Below are positions 1-5,406 of a stretch of 5,467 nt of DNA, in pieces. Numbering within the stretch: the stretch's first letter is position 1; every line of letters begins with the position of its first letter. The notes under the pieces were generated by a model, which saw nothing but the letters and a program-made list of their open reading frames with translations, was not told the DNA's origin and searched no databases. The DNA is taken from contig JAHFCY010000219.1 of the NCBI GenBank assembly GCA_023249255.1, positions 1-5,467 on the forward strand, given 5' to 3'. Position numbers and translations under genes: made by a program. The DNA is from Candidatus Lindowiibacteriota bacterium (GTDB lineage: Bacteria; Lindowbacteria; 2-12-FULL-62-27).

Positions 1-234
1 GATGCTTCGAGGCAGATGATGGGTCGTGGTGATGTGCCGGATAAGCGAATCGGCCTTGAATTGCGTCAGGACCTTGATCCGGTACAACCCGGAATTGATG
101 AAATTGATCAGAACAAAATCGATGATCCGGTACTTGCCGGCAAACGGAACCGCAGGTTTGGCGCGGTCCTGAACCAGCGGCCCAAGCCGTGTGCCGCGCC
201 CGCCGGCAAGGATCATCCCGAGTGTGTCTTTCAT
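1..234 (-). CDS. glgC: Glucose-1-phosphate adenylyltransferase (ADP-glucose pyrophosphorylase), N-terminal part, cut by window edge
   Basis: Reading leftward from the ATG at 234-232, 78 codons stay open to the window edge. The protein begins [17 protein letters not shown], the nucleotidyltransferase loop (GGRGTR at residues 11-16). It continues with [17 protein letters not shown] (24-40) and [18 protein letters not shown] (47-64), the hallmark N-terminus of bacterial GlgC. The family makes ADP-glucose from glucose-1-phosphate and ATP, the committed step of glycogen synthesis in the cytoplasm, and is usually allosterically controlled. Two positions depart from the common consensus: PFAG where PFGG is usual, and FVLIN where FVLSN is usual. 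An in-frame TAA lies six codons before this ATG. A G-rich stretch (GTGGGGGA) sits directly before the start, closer than an ideal ribosome site, and its GTG is an alternative start three codons upstream. The gene is divergent from the CBS-kor operon. Family identity is firm; the C-terminal two thirds lie outside the window. Confidence 0.93.
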
Positions 235-327
235 GTCCCCCACTTTACATTACGTCCGACAATCGCCGCAAGGACGGCCGTATGTCTCTTGCCTTTCCGT
301 CGAACGCGTGGTTACAATACCGGCGGT
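235..327. promoter_or_regulatory. Divergent intergenic region between glgC and the CBS-korAB operon
   Basis: This 93-bp spacer separates the glgC start from the start of the CBS gene and must hold signals for both directions. Rightward it carries a clear promoter, listed separately. Leftward the best candidate I can find is TTGCGG, then 16 nt, then TGTAAA, placed so that transcription would begin almost on the glgC start codon. That candidate is weak. I saw no convincing operator, long dyad or small RNA here. Confidence 0.4.
289..318 (+). promoter_or_regulatory. Sigma70-like promoter of the CBS-korAB-CBS operon
   Basis: TTGCCT at 289-294 matches 4 of 6 positions of the -35 consensus. TACAAT at 313-318 matches 5 of 6 of the -10 consensus, and the spacer is 18 nt. 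A start 6-8 nt after the -10 would fall at about 324-327, directly before the ATG at 328, so the message would be leaderless or nearly so. This agrees with the lack of a well-spaced Shine-Dalgarno sequence before 328; the only purine-rich stretch, GGCGG, is almost on top of the start codon. The call rests on consensus match alone. Confidence 0.5.
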
Positions 328-816
328 ATGAGTCAGACGACGAATATCTTGCTTGAAGAAATCCTGAAGACGGACAAAATCAAACATCTGCGGCCGCATG
401 TGGTGCCGATGATCGGGCGCAAGGCGACGGTCCGGGATGCGATTGAGTCGATGCAGAAATCCCGCCGGGGATGCGTCCTCATCTGCCACGGCAGGGATCC
501 CGTCGGCATCTTCACGGAACGCGATGTCCTGCTGAAAACGTCCGCAGGCCGGCCCGACTTCCTCCGCCAGCCGGTCGACTCTTTCATGACGCCGCAACCC
601 CAGACCATCTCCGTCCAGGATTCGATCCTCAAAGCCATCCGCATCATGACGTCGCAGGGATTCCGACACCTTGTCGTGATCGGCGAAGAGGGCGAAGTCC
701 TGGGGACGGTGTCGATGCGAAATGTCCTCATTTATCTCGCGGAGCACTTTCCCGAGGCGATCTACAACCTGCCGCCGATTTCGGGCCAGATCAATGAGGA
801 ACGGGACGGCGCATGA
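328..816 (+). CDS. Stand-alone CBS-domain-pair protein, first gene of the korAB operon
   Basis: The 162-residue protein consists almost entirely of two CBS motifs, a Bateman module. CBS1 spans about 24-72 and contains RRGCVLI (46-52) and PVGIFTERD (58-66). CBS2 spans about 86-140 and contains GFRHLVVI (111-118) and GTVSMRNVLIYL (126-137). Such modules typically bind AMP, ADP, ATP or SAM in the cleft between the motifs and act as regulators. No catalytic, membrane or DNA-binding domain is visible, so the protein is probably a soluble sensor acting on a partner. The frame is open upstream to position 16, but that part is antisense to glgC. The ATG at 328 is chosen because the CBS fold begins soon after it and the promoter ends just before it. 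Its stop overlaps the korA start (ATGA, 813-816), so the two genes are translationally coupled and KorA is the obvious candidate partner. It is distantly paralogous to the last gene of the operon. The ligand is unknown. Confidence 0.88.
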   Translation: MSQTTNILLEEILKTDKIKHLRPHVVPMIGRKATVRDAIESMQKSRRGCVLICHGRDPVGIFTERDVLLKTSAGRPDFLRQPVDSFMTPQPQTISVQDSILKAIRIMTSQGFRHLVVIGEEGEVLGTVSMRNVLIYLAEHFPEAIYNLPPISGQINEERDGA

Positions 817-2696
817 GCGCGAACCAGCGGAAGGTGGAGGACGCCGAGAACGTCGTCATCCGGTTCGCCGGCGATTCCGGGGACGGCATGCAGTTGACGG
901 GCATGCAGTTCACCGACACGTCGGCTATCATCGGCAATGACATCAGCACCCTTCCGGATTTTCCCGCCGAAATTCGCGCGCCGGCCGGATCGCTGGCAGG
1001 CGTCAGCGGCTATCAGGTCAATTTTTCCAATTTTGATATCCGAACACCGGGCGATGCGCCGTCGGTACTCGTCGTCATGAACCCCGCGGCCCTCAAAACC
1101 AATCTCGGCGATCTTGAAAAAGGCGGCATCCTGATCGCCAACAGCGACGCGTTCACGCCCGACAACCTCCGTCTGGCCGGCTACGCGCAAAATCCGCTCG
1201 AAGACGGCAGCCTCAAAGGTTACCGGCTCTATCAGGTGCCGATGACCAAACTCGTCGAGACGGCCCTCAAGGATAACCCGCTCTCATTTCGCCAGAAAGA
1301 ACGCTGTAAAAATTTCTTCGCGCTTGGCCTCGTCTACTGGATGTTCAACCGGCCGATGGAGCCGACGCTCAAATGGATCCAGGAAAAATTCAAAAAGAAT
1401 CCGGATGTCAGCGATGCCAATACGCGCTCTCTCAACGCCGGTTTCTACTTCGGTGAAACGACCGAGGCCTTTGAGGTCCGCTATCAGATTCGGAAGGCCC
1501 GGATCGCGCCGGGCACGTACCGAAAAATTACGGGCAACGAGGCGCTTGCGCTCGGGCTGATGACCGCGGCTGAACGCGCAGGTTCCCACCTCTTCTTCGC
1601 CGGCTATCCGATCACGCCCGCCAGCGACATCCTCCACGAGTTGGCCAAACACCGGCGATTCGGCGTGAAAACATTCCAGGCCGAAGACGAGATATCCGCA
1701 ATCGGGGCCACGATTGGCGCGGCATTCGGCGGGGCGCTGGCGGTCACCGCATCCAGCGGGCCCGGCATCGCGCTGAAAACCGAGGGGATCGGCCTTGCGA
1801 TCATGACGGAACTGCCGATCGTCATCTGCAACATCCAGCGCGGCGGCCCCTCGACCGGCCTGCCGACCAAAACGGAGCAGGCCGATCTCATGCAGGCGAT
1901 CTGGGGCAGAAACGGCGAAGCGCCGCTGGCAGTCATCGCGCCGGCCACGCCCGGCGAATGTTTCACGATGGCGTTCGAGGCCTTTCGCATCGCCGTGAAG
2001 TACATGACGCCGGTCATGATTCTTTCCGATGGATATATCGCGAACGGCGCCGAACCCTGGCGCATTCCGAAACTGGATGATCTGCCGGCCATAACCGTTC
2101 AACATCCAACTTCCGCCGACGGGTCGTTTCTCCCGTATCTTCGCAATCCCCGTACCCTCGCCCGGCCCTGGGCTGTTCCCGGCACGCCCGGCCTCGAACA
2201 TCGCATCGGCGGACTTGAGAAAGCCGACCGGACGGGCAACGTCAGTCATGATCCGGATAACCACGAATTCATGGTCAAAATCCGCCGCGCTAAAATCGAT
2301 GGCGTCGCCGGCGATATTCCCGATGTAGACGTTTTCGGCAGTCCGGAAGGCGGCGATCTTCTGATTGTCGGATGGGGCAGCACCCACGGTGCTATTATCT
2401 CGGCCGTCGAACGTGCTCGCGACAGGGGGCTGGATGTTTCCTGCGCGCATCTGCGATACCTCAATCCCCTTCCCAAAAATCTTGGTGATGTTTTGAAACG
2501 ATTCCGCCGCGTGGTCGTTCCCGAAATGAATCTTGGCCAGCTTCGCCTGCTCCTTCGCGCTAATTATCTTGTTGACGTCGAAGGCCTGAACAAGGTCAAG
2601 GGCCAGCCGTTCAAAATCCGCGAGATCGAGCAGAAAATTGACGAGATGAATCCGAAGAAACTCGGCGTATCCAAACAGAAAGTTGCGGTGGCATAG
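813..2696 (+). CDS. korA: 2-oxoacid:ferredoxin oxidoreductase, fused gamma-alpha subunit (KorA type)
   Basis: This 627-residue chain carries two classic OFOR subunits in one polypeptide. The gamma domain (about 13-215) begins VVIRFAGDSGDGMQLTG (14-30) and includes LPDFPAEIRAPAGSLAGVSG (47-66). The alpha pyrimidine-binding domain (about 236-500) has GYPITPAS (264-271), QAEDEISAIGA (289-299), TASSGPG (312-318) and QRGGPSTGLPTKTEQADL (342-359), which includes the conserved Arg-343. The C-terminal transketolase-like domain (about 510-615) has LLIVGWGSTHGAI and VVPEMNLGQL. With KorB it should interconvert 2-oxoglutarate plus CoA and succinyl-CoA plus CO2, reducing or oxidising ferredoxin. Order and length match Mycobacterium KorA (about 650 residues). 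The 2-oxoglutarate specificity is inferred from overall resemblance; pyruvate or a branched-chain oxoacid is not excluded. GAGGA (796-800) and GGGA (803-806) precede the start, which overlaps the CBS stop. korB begins 3 nt after its stop. Confidence 0.93.
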   Translation: MSANQRKVEDAENVVIRFAGDSGDGMQLTGMQFTDTSAIIGNDISTLPDFPAEIRAPAGSLAGVSGYQVNFSNFDIRTPGDAPSVLVVMNPAALKTNLGDLEKGGILIANSDAFTPDNLRLAGYAQNPLEDGSLKGYRLYQVPMTKLVETALKDNPLSFRQKERCKNFFALGLVYWMFNRPMEPTLKWIQEKFKKNPDVSDANTRSLNAGFYFGETTEAFEVRYQIRKARIAPGTYRKITGNEALALGLMTAAERAGSHLFFAGYPITPASDILHELAKHRRFGVKTFQAEDEISAIGATIGAAFGGALAVTASSGPGIALKTEGIGLAIMTELPIVICNIQRGGPSTGLPTKTEQADLMQAIWGRNGEAPLAVIAPATPGECFTMAFEAFRIAVKYMTPVMILSDGYIANGAEPWRIPKLDDLPAITVQHPTSADGSFLPYLRNPRTLARPWAVPGTPGLEHRIGGLEKADRTGNVSHDPDNHEFMVKIRRAKIDGVAGDIPDVDVFGSPEGGDLLIVGWGSTHGAIISAVERARDRGLDVSCAHLRYLNPLPKNLGDVLKRFRRVVVPEMNLGQLRLLLRANYLVDVEGLNKVKGQPFKIREIEQKIDEMNPKKLGVSKQKVAVA

Positions 2697-2699
2697 CCC

Positions 2700-3767
2700 A
2701 TGGCGCCCGACACCTCCGCGCCCGCACAATCTGTCGTTCCGCAGTCTGGAGCGCCGTCTCTCACGAGAAAAGATTTTGTGTCAAATCAGGATGTCCGATG
2801 GTGTCCCGGCTGCGGCGATTATGCGATCCTCTCAACCGCGCTCAACGTTTTCCCGAAACTCGGCATTCCGCGCGAACGCTTCGTCATGGTTTCCGGAATC
2901 GGATGCTCAAGCCGCTTTCCCTACTACGTCAACACATACGGATTTCACAGCATCCATGGCCGCGCGCCGACCTTCGCAACAGGCCTCAAGCTCGTCCGGC
3001 CGGAACTGTCGATCTGGATCATCACGGGCGACGGCGACGGCCTCTCAATCGGTGGAAACCATCTCATCCACATCATGCGCCGGAATATCGACTGCACGAT
3101 CCTGCTTTTCAATAACCGCATCTACGGTCTCACCAAGGGCCAGTGTTCGCCGACCTCCGAAATGCACAAGAAAACCAAATCCACGCCGCTCGGTTCCATC
3201 GACTATCCCGTCAATCCCATTTCCCTCGCGCTTGCGGCCGAGGCGACGTTCATCGCGCGGACGCTCGACACCGATCCGAAACACATGGCGTCGATCTTCC
3301 AGCAGGCGGCCGAACACAAGGGCACGTCGTTTGTGGAGATTTTTCAAAATTGCATTATTTTCAACGACAAGGCGTTTGAGCCGGTGGCCGACAAAACCAC
3401 GCGGGCCGACAACGCGATTTTTTTGGAGAACGGCAAGCCGCTGGTGTACGGCAAGGATGGCCTCCGCGGGATCCGCCTCAACGGATGGAAACCCGAGGTC
3501 GTCTCATTCGACGAATCCAATCCGCCCTCGGGGTTGCCGACCCACGACGAGATGGCCGAAGACCCGAGCTGGGCGTATCTGTTGAGCCGCATGGATCCGT
3601 CACAGGGATTTCCGGTGCCGTTCGGCGTTTTCAGGCGCGTCCACCGCACCACCTACGAGGACCTCATGGCCCAGCAAATTTCTGAGGCCCAGCACCGCCA
3701 GGGCTTGGCCTCTACCGAAGCGCTTCAGGAACTCATCACCGGCGAAGACACCTGGACCGTGTCATGA
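2700..3767 (+). CDS. korB: 2-oxoacid:ferredoxin oxidoreductase beta subunit (KorB), TPP and 4Fe-4S binding
   Basis: The 355-residue protein is a full-length KorB. All four expected iron-sulfur ligands are visible: Cys-35 and Cys-38 in RWCPGCGDY, Cys-69 in GIGCSSR, and Cys-218 in IFQNCIIFND. The thiamine diphosphate and magnesium motif runs from GDGDGLSIGGNH (110-121) to NNRIYGLTKGQ (138-148), followed by the typical SPT. The C-terminal stretch LENGKPLVYG and the SRMDPSQGFPVPFGVFRR region are characteristic of KorB. The beta subunit holds the TPP and the single cluster that passes electrons to ferredoxin. No extra ferredoxin domain is fused to it. Residues 1-20, rich in Ala, Pro and Ser, are a probably disordered lead-in before LTRKDF. 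GGTGG at 2687-2691 lies about 8 nt before the ATG, inside the end of korA. Its stop overlaps the next start (ATGA, 3764-3767), so korA, korB and the CBS gene should be made together. Confidence 0.94.
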   Translation: MAPDTSAPAQSVVPQSGAPSLTRKDFVSNQDVRWCPGCGDYAILSTALNVFPKLGIPRERFVMVSGIGCSSRFPYYVNTYGFHSIHGRAPTFATGLKLVRPELSIWIITGDGDGLSIGGNHLIHIMRRNIDCTILLFNNRIYGLTKGQCSPTSEMHKKTKSTPLGSIDYPVNPISLALAAEATFIARTLDTDPKHMASIFQQAAEHKGTSFVEIFQNCIIFNDKAFEPVADKTTRADNAIFLENGKPLVYGKDGLRGIRLNGWKPEVVSFDESNPPSGLPTHDEMAEDPSWAYLLSRMDPSQGFPVPFGVFRRVHRTTYEDLMAQQISEAQHRQGLASTEALQELITGEDTWTVS

Positions 3768-4276
3768 TCTGCCCTCATTGCGGATACGACAACTACGCGG
3801 GCGAGGAAGTTTGCGAGCGGTGTCTGCACGATCTCACGCAGATCGACACAACGCCCCGACCGAAAAATCAGGTGCACCGGAGCATCATCGAAGATCCCGT
3901 GGCGCGGCTGAACCCCCCGGAACACACCACCGTCAGCCTGAACGACTCCGTTGAGTCGGTCGCCGAGACCATGAAGAAGCGCCGGGCCGGATGCGTCATT
4001 GTCGAGGACAATCACCGTCCCGTGGGTGTCTTCACGGAGCGCGACCTGTTGATGAAAGTCGCGGGCAAACCCATCGACCGGGCGCGTACGAATATTCGAA
4101 CCCTCATGACCGCGCCGGTCGAGACCGTCAAAGCCTCCGATACCATCGCGTACGTCCTGAACAAAATGTCGATCGGCGGATACAGGCATCTGCCGATCGC
4201 CGATGACACCGGTCGCGTGACCGGCGTCATTTCCGTCCGAAACATTCTGGAGTATCTCGCCGGCCGGTTCAGCTGA
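3764..4276 (+). CDS. Zinc-ribbon plus CBS-domain-pair protein, last gene of the korAB operon
   Basis: The 170-residue protein opens with a four-cysteine knuckle pair, CPHC (3-6) and CERC (17-20), a zinc-ribbon-like CxxC-x10-CxxC. A linker follows to about residue 44, then two CBS motifs. CBS1 (about 50-100) has RRAGCVIVED (73-82) and PVGVFTERDLLMKV (86-99). CBS2 (about 112-168) has GYRHLPIADD (139-148) and GVISVRNILEYLAGRF (154-169). The shared GCV, PVGxFTERD and YRHL or FRHL motifs show it is related to the first gene of the operon. It is most likely a nucleotide-sensing regulatory subunit. The ribbon could bind a protein or nucleic acid, or hold a metal. A rubredoxin-like iron site is possible but unproven, as the loop sequence looks more like a structural zinc ribbon. 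It starts inside the korB stop with no strong ribosome site of its own, which implies coupling to korB. It converges on and overlaps tgt by 8 bp. Confidence 0.88.
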   Translation: MICPHCGYDNYAGEEVCERCLHDLTQIDTTPRPKNQVHRSIIEDPVARLNPPEHTTVSLNDSVESVAETMKKRRAGCVIVEDNHRPVGVFTERDLLMKVAGKPIDRARTNIRTLMTAPVETVKASDTIAYVLNKMSIGGYRHLPIADDTGRVTGVISVRNILEYLAGRFS

Positions 4277-4281
4277 TCCGG
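4264..4281. repeat. 18-bp imperfect palindrome at the convergent gene junction
   Basis: CCGGTTCAGCTGATCCGG is a dyad with one mismatched pair (4268 against 4277). Its core, TCAGCTGA (4269-4276), is a perfect palindrome and is exactly the overlap of the two genes, so each reads AGC TGA (Ser-stop) on its own strand. Its right arm is shared with the left arm of the terminator stem, so the two structures would be mutually exclusive. Confidence 0.55.
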
Positions 4282-5336
4282 ATTTCCTCCCGGATTTTTT
4301 TCATCAGGGTGTGGATGTGAAACAAATTGTGGTACGTCGCCAGTTTCAATCCTAAAATTTCATCGCACATCACGAGGTGCCGAAGATAGGCCCGGCTGTA
4401 TGTTTTGCAGACACGGCATGCGCAGGCCGGATCGAACGGAATGTCCGACCGTTCGTGTTCCGAGTTGCGGATGTTCACAGGCCCGTCGGCAGTCAGGAGT
4501 TGTCCGCGTCGCGCGTTTCGCGTCGGCAGAACACAGTCAAACAAGTCGATGCCCAGTCTCGCGCAGGTCTCCAGATCAGCCGGCGCGCCGACGCCCATGA
4601 GATACCTCGGATGATCTTCCGGATAGTCAGGCAAAATTTGTTCGAGCGTCGCGTACATGCGTTCATTGGACTCGCCGACCGCCAGACCGCCGATTGCCAG
4701 ACCCGGAAAGTTTAACGGCAACAGCCCATCGAGACTTTGCCGGCGCAGAGCCGGATCGGTGCCGCCCTGCGTGATGCCGAAAACAGATCCGGCGAATTCG
4801 TTTTGCGAAAGCCACGCCGCCGTTCGTTTCGCCCACGCCGCCGTCCGTTCGACTGCCTTCTCAAGCTGCGCGGGATCGCATGGATGCGGCGGACATTCGT
4901 CGAGAACCATCGCGATATCGCTTCCAAGATCTCTCTGAATCTCCAGCGCGCTTTCCGGGGTCAACCGATGAACGGCGCCGCCGTCCTCCGGTGCGCTGAA
5001 CGTGACACCGTCGTCATCAAGCGCGCGGATTTTGGATAGCGAAAAAATCTGAAACCCCCCGCTGTCGGTCAGTAGCGCGCCGGGCCAGTGCATGAACGGC
5101 TTGACGCCGCCAAATCGCCGGATGACGTCGACGCCCGGTCGAAGCGAGAGATGATACGTATTTCCGAGAATGAGCCGGTATCCCATCTCCCAGACCTCAT
5201 CCGGCTCCAGAGTCCGAACCGTCGCAAGCGTCCCCACCGGCATGAATGCCGGCGTCTCAATGACCTGCCCGCCGACTTCAAGCCGCCCGAGGCGCGCCCG
5301 GCCCGATTTTTTGATGACTTCGAATTTCATTGCCAT
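4269..5336 (-). CDS. tgt: tRNA-guanine(34) transglycosylase (Tgt)
   Basis: The 355-residue enzyme swaps guanine-34 for preQ1 in tRNAs with GUN anticodons, in the cytoplasm. Key residues are intact: Asp-91 in TDSGGFQ (90-96); Asp-146 in DECPPHP (146-152); Gln-190 in ITQGG (188-192); IGGLAVGE (215-222); the nucleophile Asp-267 in FDCVLPTRNARRG (266-278); and zinc ligands Cys-305, Cys-307, Cys-310 and His-336. Each lies 10-13 residues before its counterpart in the Zymomonas mobilis enzyme. Cys-148 and Val-220 match the bacterial preQ1-specific form, not the eukaryotic queuine form. The length is slightly below the usual 370-385, mostly because the N-terminus is short. The start at 5336 is favoured over the ATG two codons later because GAAGGA (5349-5344) sits 7 nt before it. 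queA lies just upstream, giving the common queA-tgt order. Its 3' end overlaps the convergent CBS gene. Confidence 0.96.
   Translation of the reverse strand: MAMKFEVIKKSGRARLGRLEVGGQVIETPAFMPVGTLATVRTLEPDEVWEMGYRLILGNTYHLSLRPGVDVIRRFGGVKPFMHWPGALLTDSGGFQIFSLSKIRALDDDGVTFSAPEDGGAVHRLTPESALEIQRDLGSDIAMVLDECPPHPCDPAQLEKAVERTAAWAKRTAAWLSQNEFAGSVFGITQGGTDPALRRQSLDGLLPLNFPGLAIGGLAVGESNERMYATLEQILPDYPEDHPRYLMGVGAPADLETCARLGIDLFDCVLPTRNARRGQLLTADGPVNIRNSEHERSDIPFDPACACRVCKTYSRAYLRHLVMCDEILGLKLATYHNLFHIHTLMKKIREEIRIS
4276..4301 (+). terminator. Intrinsic terminator of the CBS-korAB-CBS operon, inside tgt
   Basis: The 6-bp stem ATCCGG (4276-4281) pairs with CCGGAT (4290-4295) around an 8-nt loop. The stem runs directly into a T tract at 4295-4301, leaving six unpaired T. 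It begins at the last base of the preceding stop codon, the right place to end the operon. The stem is short with four G-C pairs, so it may be only moderately efficient. The same DNA encodes the C-terminal residues of Tgt on the other strand, whose Lys codons supply the T tract. I see no comparable T tract for leftward termination of tgt. Confidence 0.6.
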
Positions 5337-5354: not shown

Positions 5355-5406
5355 AAAGTGATATCATGATATCGTGATATATATCATGATATCATGATAT
5401 CACTTT
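5355..5406. repeat. 52-bp near-perfect palindrome made of tandem TGATATCA octamers
   Basis: Centred between 5380 and 5381, 25 of 26 base pairs of the dyad match; the exception is G5374 against T5387. It is bounded by AAAG and CTTT and consists of five head-to-tail units: TGATATCA (5359-5366), TGATATCG (5367-5374), a longer central TGATATATATCA (5375-5386), then TGATATCA twice (5387-5402). Each octamer is itself palindromic. The element is AT-rich, unlike its surroundings, and lies between queA and tgt, 5 nt upstream of the tgt ribosome site in transcription order. It could be an operator array, a long RNA hairpin in the queA-tgt message, or a repeat grown by replication slippage. No T tract follows on the minus strand, so it is not a standard terminator. 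Plus-strand RNA would have a G-U wobble at the odd pair and minus-strand RNA an A-C mismatch. Confidence 0.9.

Follow-up and report, generated by a model that had tools for sequence, protein, structure and literature searches.

The window, a 5,467-nucleotide stretch of DNA from a Candidatus Lindowiibacteriota bacterium (contig JAHFCY010000219.1), carries the genes for KorA and KorB, the two subunits of a 2-oxoacid:ferredoxin oxidoreductase (OFOR), between genes for two small CBS-domain proteins. From comparison of this locus with other bacterial genomes, we consider the CBS pair to be, more probably than any other role we weighed, a dedicated regulatory module of the two-subunit 2-oxoglutarate (2-oxoacid):ferredoxin oxidoreductase that senses an adenosyl ligand. 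An earlier note on this DNA had proposed the CBS proteins as regulatory subunits. Of that proposal, the dedicated partnership with KorAB stands and is well supported at the sequence level by recurrence of the linkage, natural KorB-CBS fusions and strict genome-level co-occurrence, while the ligand, the physical contact and the direction of control are what we infer. The arrangement suggests on/off control of a key central-metabolism step by a CBS pair, which is undescribed so far. The four-gene order, the coordinates and the ATGA, 3-nt and ATGA junctions given in the earlier note are exact in the sequence, korA and korB being those separated by the 3-nt gap:

328-816, plus strand: tailed CBS gene, 162 residues; two CBS domains (Pfam) and a conserved C-terminal tail, FPEAIYNLPPISGQINEERDGA-COOH
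748-813, plus strand: tail codons of this upstream CBS gene (residues 141-162), from alignments of homologues
813-816, plus strand: ATGA stop/start overlap between the CBS gene and korA (sequence)
813-2696, plus strand: korA, fused gamma-alpha subunit of a two-subunit OFOR, 627 residues (TIGR03710; 6n2n_A)
2700-3767, plus strand: korB, thiamine pyrophosphate (TPP)-binding beta subunit, 355 residues (TPP_enzyme_C; invariant cysteines; 6n2n_B)
3764-3767, plus strand: ATGA overlap between korB and the zinc-ribbon CBS gene (sequence)
3764-4276, plus strand: zinc-ribbon CBS gene, 170 residues; CPHC-x10-CERC ribbon and two CBS domains, no tail (Pfam)

CBS genes beside korAB across bacteria

A survey of korAB neighbourhoods had been set beforehand as a test, and its outcome refutes the idea that CBS genes are rare beside korAB in relatives. 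CBS genes adjoin korAB at 35 of the 138 korA loci compared (window included; one locus convergent). Scanning with a KorA profile turned up 80 loci, and 23 of them have a CBS gene beside korAB; these belong to Chloroflexota (12), Planctomycetota (3), Omnitrophota (2), Fidelibacterota/Neomarinimicrobiota (2), Acidobacteriota, Elusimicrobiota and Bdellovibrionota (1 each) and an unplaced bacterium of the window's family (1). Eight lineages or more show the linkage, namely seven named phyla and that of the window. On a tree of the 138 KorA proteins, 20 changes of the linkage label are required, of which well-supported branches force at least 14; therefore, the linkage is not one inherited accident. 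CBS-korA-korB-CBS is the commonest arrangement, and the others are CBS-CBS-korA-korB, a single CBS gene up- or downstream, and a korB-CBS fusion. At one locus (L170, in G289), the tailed CBS gene lies ~60 bp past the end of korB in convergent orientation, so the partnership there needs no co-transcription.

A second, independent set comprised 290 genomes, in most cases one per family. KorA was called at E <= 1e-100 in 58 of them, and a CBS gene lies next to korAB co-oriented in 12 of these and convergent in 1. Outside the window's family, a co-oriented CBS gene adjoins korAB in 9 of the 55 KorA-bearing genomes, where ~0.4 would be expected (binomial p ~2e-10 at a chance rate of 0.7% of genes with a CBS neighbour, which we estimated by taking a genome to have some 10 CBS genes, and p = 1.4e-6 even at 2%). 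A tailed-CBS profile was also run on the same genomes, counting only matches that extend into the tail without an internal stop. Tailed CBS was detected in 17 of the 290 genomes, and all 17 are among the 58 with KorA (p = 1.6e-13); without the window's family, 14 of 14 tailed-CBS genomes have KorA, against 55 of 287 overall (p = 2e-11). These counts include unlinked copies, with tailed CBS away from detected korA in G050, G054, G151 and G152. The complete ribbon form was found by the ribbon-CBS profile only in kor operons (G000, G001, G002 and G210).

The CBS module is also found joined to the enzyme itself. At three Anaerolineae loci (L084, L087 and L096) and at L200, KorB continues at its C-terminus into a tail-less, downstream-type module, in chains of 503-550 residues, and all four fused copies are without the ribbon. 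In G054, both CBS paralogues form one 312-residue chain with the tail at its end, distant from korAB. Such natural fusions point to KorB as the target of the module and to joint action of the CBS pair.

The two CBS paralogues and their oxidoreductase

As in CBS-pair (Bateman) sensor proteins, two CBS domains make up one module in each small protein (Pfam E 2.3e-19 and 4.9e-23), and Zn_Ribbon_1 is sub-threshold in the downstream one (21.3 bits vs a cut-off of 25). Its four ribbon cysteines are N-terminal (Cys3/6/17/20), as they are in 19 of 19 free tail-less downstream homologues and in none of the upstream homologues. The upstream proteins end in GA, GG or AG in 30 of 30 cases (GA or GG in 29), most of them with a tail of the type FPxxVxNLPPRPxQxxxxxEGA, and within the window's family they share 68-73% identity. 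In the CBS tree, the upstream-type proteins form a clade of 24 rows with 100/99 support (27 rows including a weaker branch), and the downstream, second and fused proteins form a separate group. By alignment and tree, the upstream and downstream CBS proteins are distinct paralogues with fixed tail and ribbon positions. The protein of single-CBS loci is mostly tailed, with a body that clusters weakly with the downstream type, which suggests that an ancestral tailed CBS protein was duplicated and that the two copies then specialised. Neither group has a specific model in Pfam or NCBIfam, where generic CBS models are the only matches.

The first CBS domain of both window proteins has the ribose-type T-x-x-D motif (TERD), which is near-invariant in both homologue groups. 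Fold neighbours of the AlphaFold model of the tailed CBS protein include CBS pairs bound to adenosine mono-, di- or triphosphate (AMP, ADP or ATP), such as 2rif, 3ddj and 9s4v. The CBS-pair core of the model has a predicted local distance difference test score of ~95, which falls to 60 and then 45 in the tail. The tail is conserved to the last residue yet disordered alone, as would be expected of a peptide that folds on a partner.

KorA contains the Pfam domains POR, POR_N and PFOR_II and scores 668.5 bits against TIGR03710 (cut-off 482.75), the fused gamma-alpha type, while KorB contains TPP_enzyme_C and no ferredoxin domain by Pfam. The YPITP motif (residues 265-269) and the substrate arginine, Arg343 in QRGGPST, are invariant in the KorA alignment, as are the [4Fe-4S] cysteines Cys35, 38, 69 and 218 in the KorB alignment. 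The closest solved relative of both chains is the 2-oxoglutarate:ferredoxin oxidoreductase of Magnetococcus marinus (6n2n). With its fused alpha subunit, YPITP and arginine, and a TPP-binding beta subunit with four cysteines, the window enzyme is a two-subunit OFOR of the KorAB type, as judged from these motifs and domains. The roles of YPITP, the substrate arginine and the pocket residues were described for Sulfolobus StOFOR (Yan et al. 2016, PMC5020499). Asp468a, Thr349a and Leu123b of StOFOR1 align with Leu468, Thr348 and Leu144 of the window enzyme, and Lys49b with Arg72 of KorB. Since the Leu468/Thr348/Leu144 states are those reported for H. thermophilus KorAB (PMC5020499), 2-oxoglutarate is the likely substrate. 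The substrate-specific equivalog models stay below their cut-offs (TIGR02177, 250.6 vs 261.9).

Residues 224-355 of KorB (window 3369-3764) form a ~130-residue C-terminal extension past the part matched in solved beta chains. This region is conserved throughout the clade and may be where the CBS module docks. Another gene of the OFOR alpha type, truncated at a contig end (G000:C53:3-488, L251), is present in the window's genome, and Bacteroidetes bacterium WY4.bin70 (L074) has tandem complete korAB copies ~0.2 kb apart without CBS genes.

The earlier note had left the direction of the enzyme at either 2-oxoglutarate oxidation or reductive carboxylation, and the genome content favours the former. 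The window's genome (88.7% complete) encodes two citrate synthases and three COX1-family proteins, with no 2-oxoglutarate dehydrogenase E1 component above cut-off. In 12 further CBS-linked genomes, E1 is not above cut-off in 11 and COX1-family proteins are present in 9, which makes 12 of 13 and 10 of 13 with the window's genome included; the COX1 family also takes in nitric oxide reductases, and genome completeness is imperfect. Because citrate synthase and haem-copper oxidases are found together with no E1 above cut-off, the simplest reading is that KorAB probably runs oxidatively in the tricarboxylic acid (TCA) cycle of respiring bacteria.

The four genes had also been described as lying behind one promoter and before one terminator, neither of which is supported by the scans. 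The possible promoter at 289-318 on the plus strand is a weak 9/12 consensus match, not above chance. The terminator-like 7-bp stem at 4275-4296 falls inside convergent tgt, at the 3' end of that gene, and the window scan gives sites of this kind no more often than chance (3 vs 5.3 in shuffles). With a weak promoter match and terminator sites rarer than in shuffles, the proposal of a single transcript of the four genes has its basis in the overlaps between the genes, which are conserved. The flanks are a sugar-nucleotidyltransferase-like fragment on the left (1-243, minus strand) and tgt on the right (4269-5336, minus strand). Just upstream of tgt, a near-perfect 52-bp palindrome of ATATCATGATATC repeats (5355-5406) explains several promoter-like matches in the window scan. 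The gene order is unchanged in two other genomes of the window's family, and the nearest named relative is NC_groundwater_1274 (JACQOF01, L055).

A proposed mechanism and its competitors

The mechanism that we propose starts from the four translationally linked genes, seen at the sequence level, which specify KorA, KorB and the two CBS paralogues. The tailed and ribbon CBS proteins would pair up as a heteromeric CBS assembly, because CBS-CBS genes are adjacent in three genomes and both proteins are in one chain in a fourth. The tail-less module would then anchor on KorB, through the zinc ribbon if free and covalently if fused; the ribbon is the candidate anchor because the KorB-CBS fusions are without it. 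In each CBS pair, the conserved T-x-x-D motif would be the binding site for AMP, ADP, ATP or S-adenosylmethionine; the motif is seen and the ligand is predicted. Ligand binding would move the tailed CBS protein and thereby make its C-terminal tail (..NLPPRP..EGA-COOH) bear on KorAB or let go of it, and 2-oxoglutarate oxidation would be tuned to the energy state in respirers that use KorAB, not 2-oxoglutarate dehydrogenase. The most specific form of the proposal is a widespread and undescribed KorB-docked heteromeric CBS sensor that reads adenylates and whose strictly conserved C-terminal arm (NLPPRP...EGA-COOH) gates the active or ferredoxin site of KorAB, such that O2-respirers of many phyla run an energy-charge-controlled, ferredoxin-linked TCA cycle. 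We put this form forward tentatively.

Several observations weigh against a ligand-sensing module dedicated to KorAB. Tailed CBS was not seen in 41 of the 58 KorA-positive genomes, so the module would be optional, which fits an accessory with a regulatory role, and diverged tailed CBS proteins of genomes without KorA could have fallen short of the E-value thresholds. The second-CBS motif is degenerate, often S-x-x-N (as in the window), and a clean T-x-x-D is missing in some CBS members. The E1 and COX1 counts cover CBS-linked genomes alone. The predicted structure of a KorB-CBS fusion combines a KorB part like 6n2n_B (target-normalised template-modelling score 0.79) with a CBS pair, but it has a floppy linker (residues 333-355), a predicted template-modelling score of 0.60 and no readable interface.

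The strongest competitor accepts the CBS proteins as partners of KorAB, only as assembly, stability or oxygen-protection factors or as ferredoxin docks in which the CBS fold is a mere scaffold. OFORs are typically oxygen-labile, and haem-copper oxidases are present in most linked genomes, as this explanation would have it; the degenerate second-CBS motifs are also on its side. Some CBS-ribbon proteins bind iron, and the Cys4 ribbon here could do likewise. The first-CBS T-x-x-D is nevertheless kept almost everywhere, and the ribbon is missing from the fused and tandem-upstream forms, so it is unlikely to be an essential electron carrier. We regard this explanation as the less likely one, though it deserves real weight.

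A ligand sensor with a target other than KorAB, such as transcription or another ferredoxin-linked enzyme, is in our judgement an improbable role for the CBS proteins; co-transcription would then merely match supply. Some tailed CBS copies are indeed remote from korAB, with ftsH, leuB/leuC or a ferredoxin-reductase-like gene (named by appearance) as neighbours. However, the KorB-CBS fusions place the module on the enzyme, and the domain library scans found no DNA-binding domain in either CBS protein. One of the distant copies, between leuB- and leuC-like genes (L241, G074:C10), is a second copy in a genome that also has one beside korA. Tail-less CBS relatives directly 3' of a large gene that looks like FapA/DUF342 (L239 in G010 and L237 in G158; named by appearance) are a separate CBS association, apart from korAB. 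Finally, genomes tend to have many CBS genes (the window's has 14 CBS domains), but chance adjacency of such genes to korAB, inherited within one lineage, is refuted by the neighbourhood survey with its eight or more lineages and fixed tail/ribbon order, by the fusions and by the genome co-occurrence (p = 1.6e-13), and we give it almost no credence.

Relation to known systems

OFORs stand at the branch point of carbon oxidation, CO2 fixation and low-potential electron supply. CBS-controlled enzymes are known, but to our knowledge a CBS-equipped OFOR is not, and we know of no dedicated allosteric regulator of any OFOR. The earlier note likewise knew of no characterised OFOR with dedicated CBS subunits on both sides, in agreement with the PDB matches and with a text search of open-licence literature, which found no paper linking CBS domains with OFOR, KorAB or PFOR; an earlier description in subscription papers is possible. 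Kept from Chloroflexota to Planctomycetota and Omnitrophota and fused to KorB in places, the CBS module names candidate proteins, likely ligands and an effector tail, which makes control of flux through KorAB directly testable. Two groups of CBS proteins hitherto covered by generic CBS models only thereby gain a probable function.

Among CBS proteins, Ta0289 (1pvm/2qh1) and 3ghd also combine a CBS pair with a ribbon-like domain, as the window ribbon CBS protein does. The ribbon of Ta0289 appears to be C-terminal, as the CBS match covers residues 19-132 of 184, whereas that of the window protein is N-terminal and its gene is linked to korB; we therefore do not class it as a Ta0289-type protein. 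The CBS modules of AcuB (9s4v-9s52, with AMP/ADP/ATP) and CcpN are fold neighbours of the tailed CBS model, but they have other partners, and the match is limited to the CBS part, with the NLPP..EGA tail outside. AMPK gamma/SNF4 are likewise separate CBS regulatory subunits of an enzyme and give sequence-profile matches to the window CBS proteins, which are not members of that family; they differ in their kinase partner and in having four CBS domains per chain.

Among OFORs, the four-subunit OorDABC of Helicobacter pylori (8ys5) is a 2-oxoglutarate-oxidising enzyme with small accessory subunits, whose alpha and beta subunits align with KorA and KorB; the PDB matches of the window CBS proteins include no OFOR chain, those of OorDABC included. 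The Magnetococcus enzyme (6n2n), Sulfolobus StOFOR (5b46/5b48; PMC5020499) and H. thermophilus KorAB share with the window enzyme the gamma-alpha KorA, the TPP-binding KorB with four cluster cysteines, YPITP, the substrate arginine and the lack of a ferredoxin domain. At the position of StOFOR1 Asp468a, the window KorA has Leu468, as in H. thermophilus KorAB. In contrast to the solved beta chains, the window KorB has ~130 more C-terminal residues, and unlike these two-subunit OFORs, the window system has two dedicated CBS proteins, which in some species are fused to KorB.

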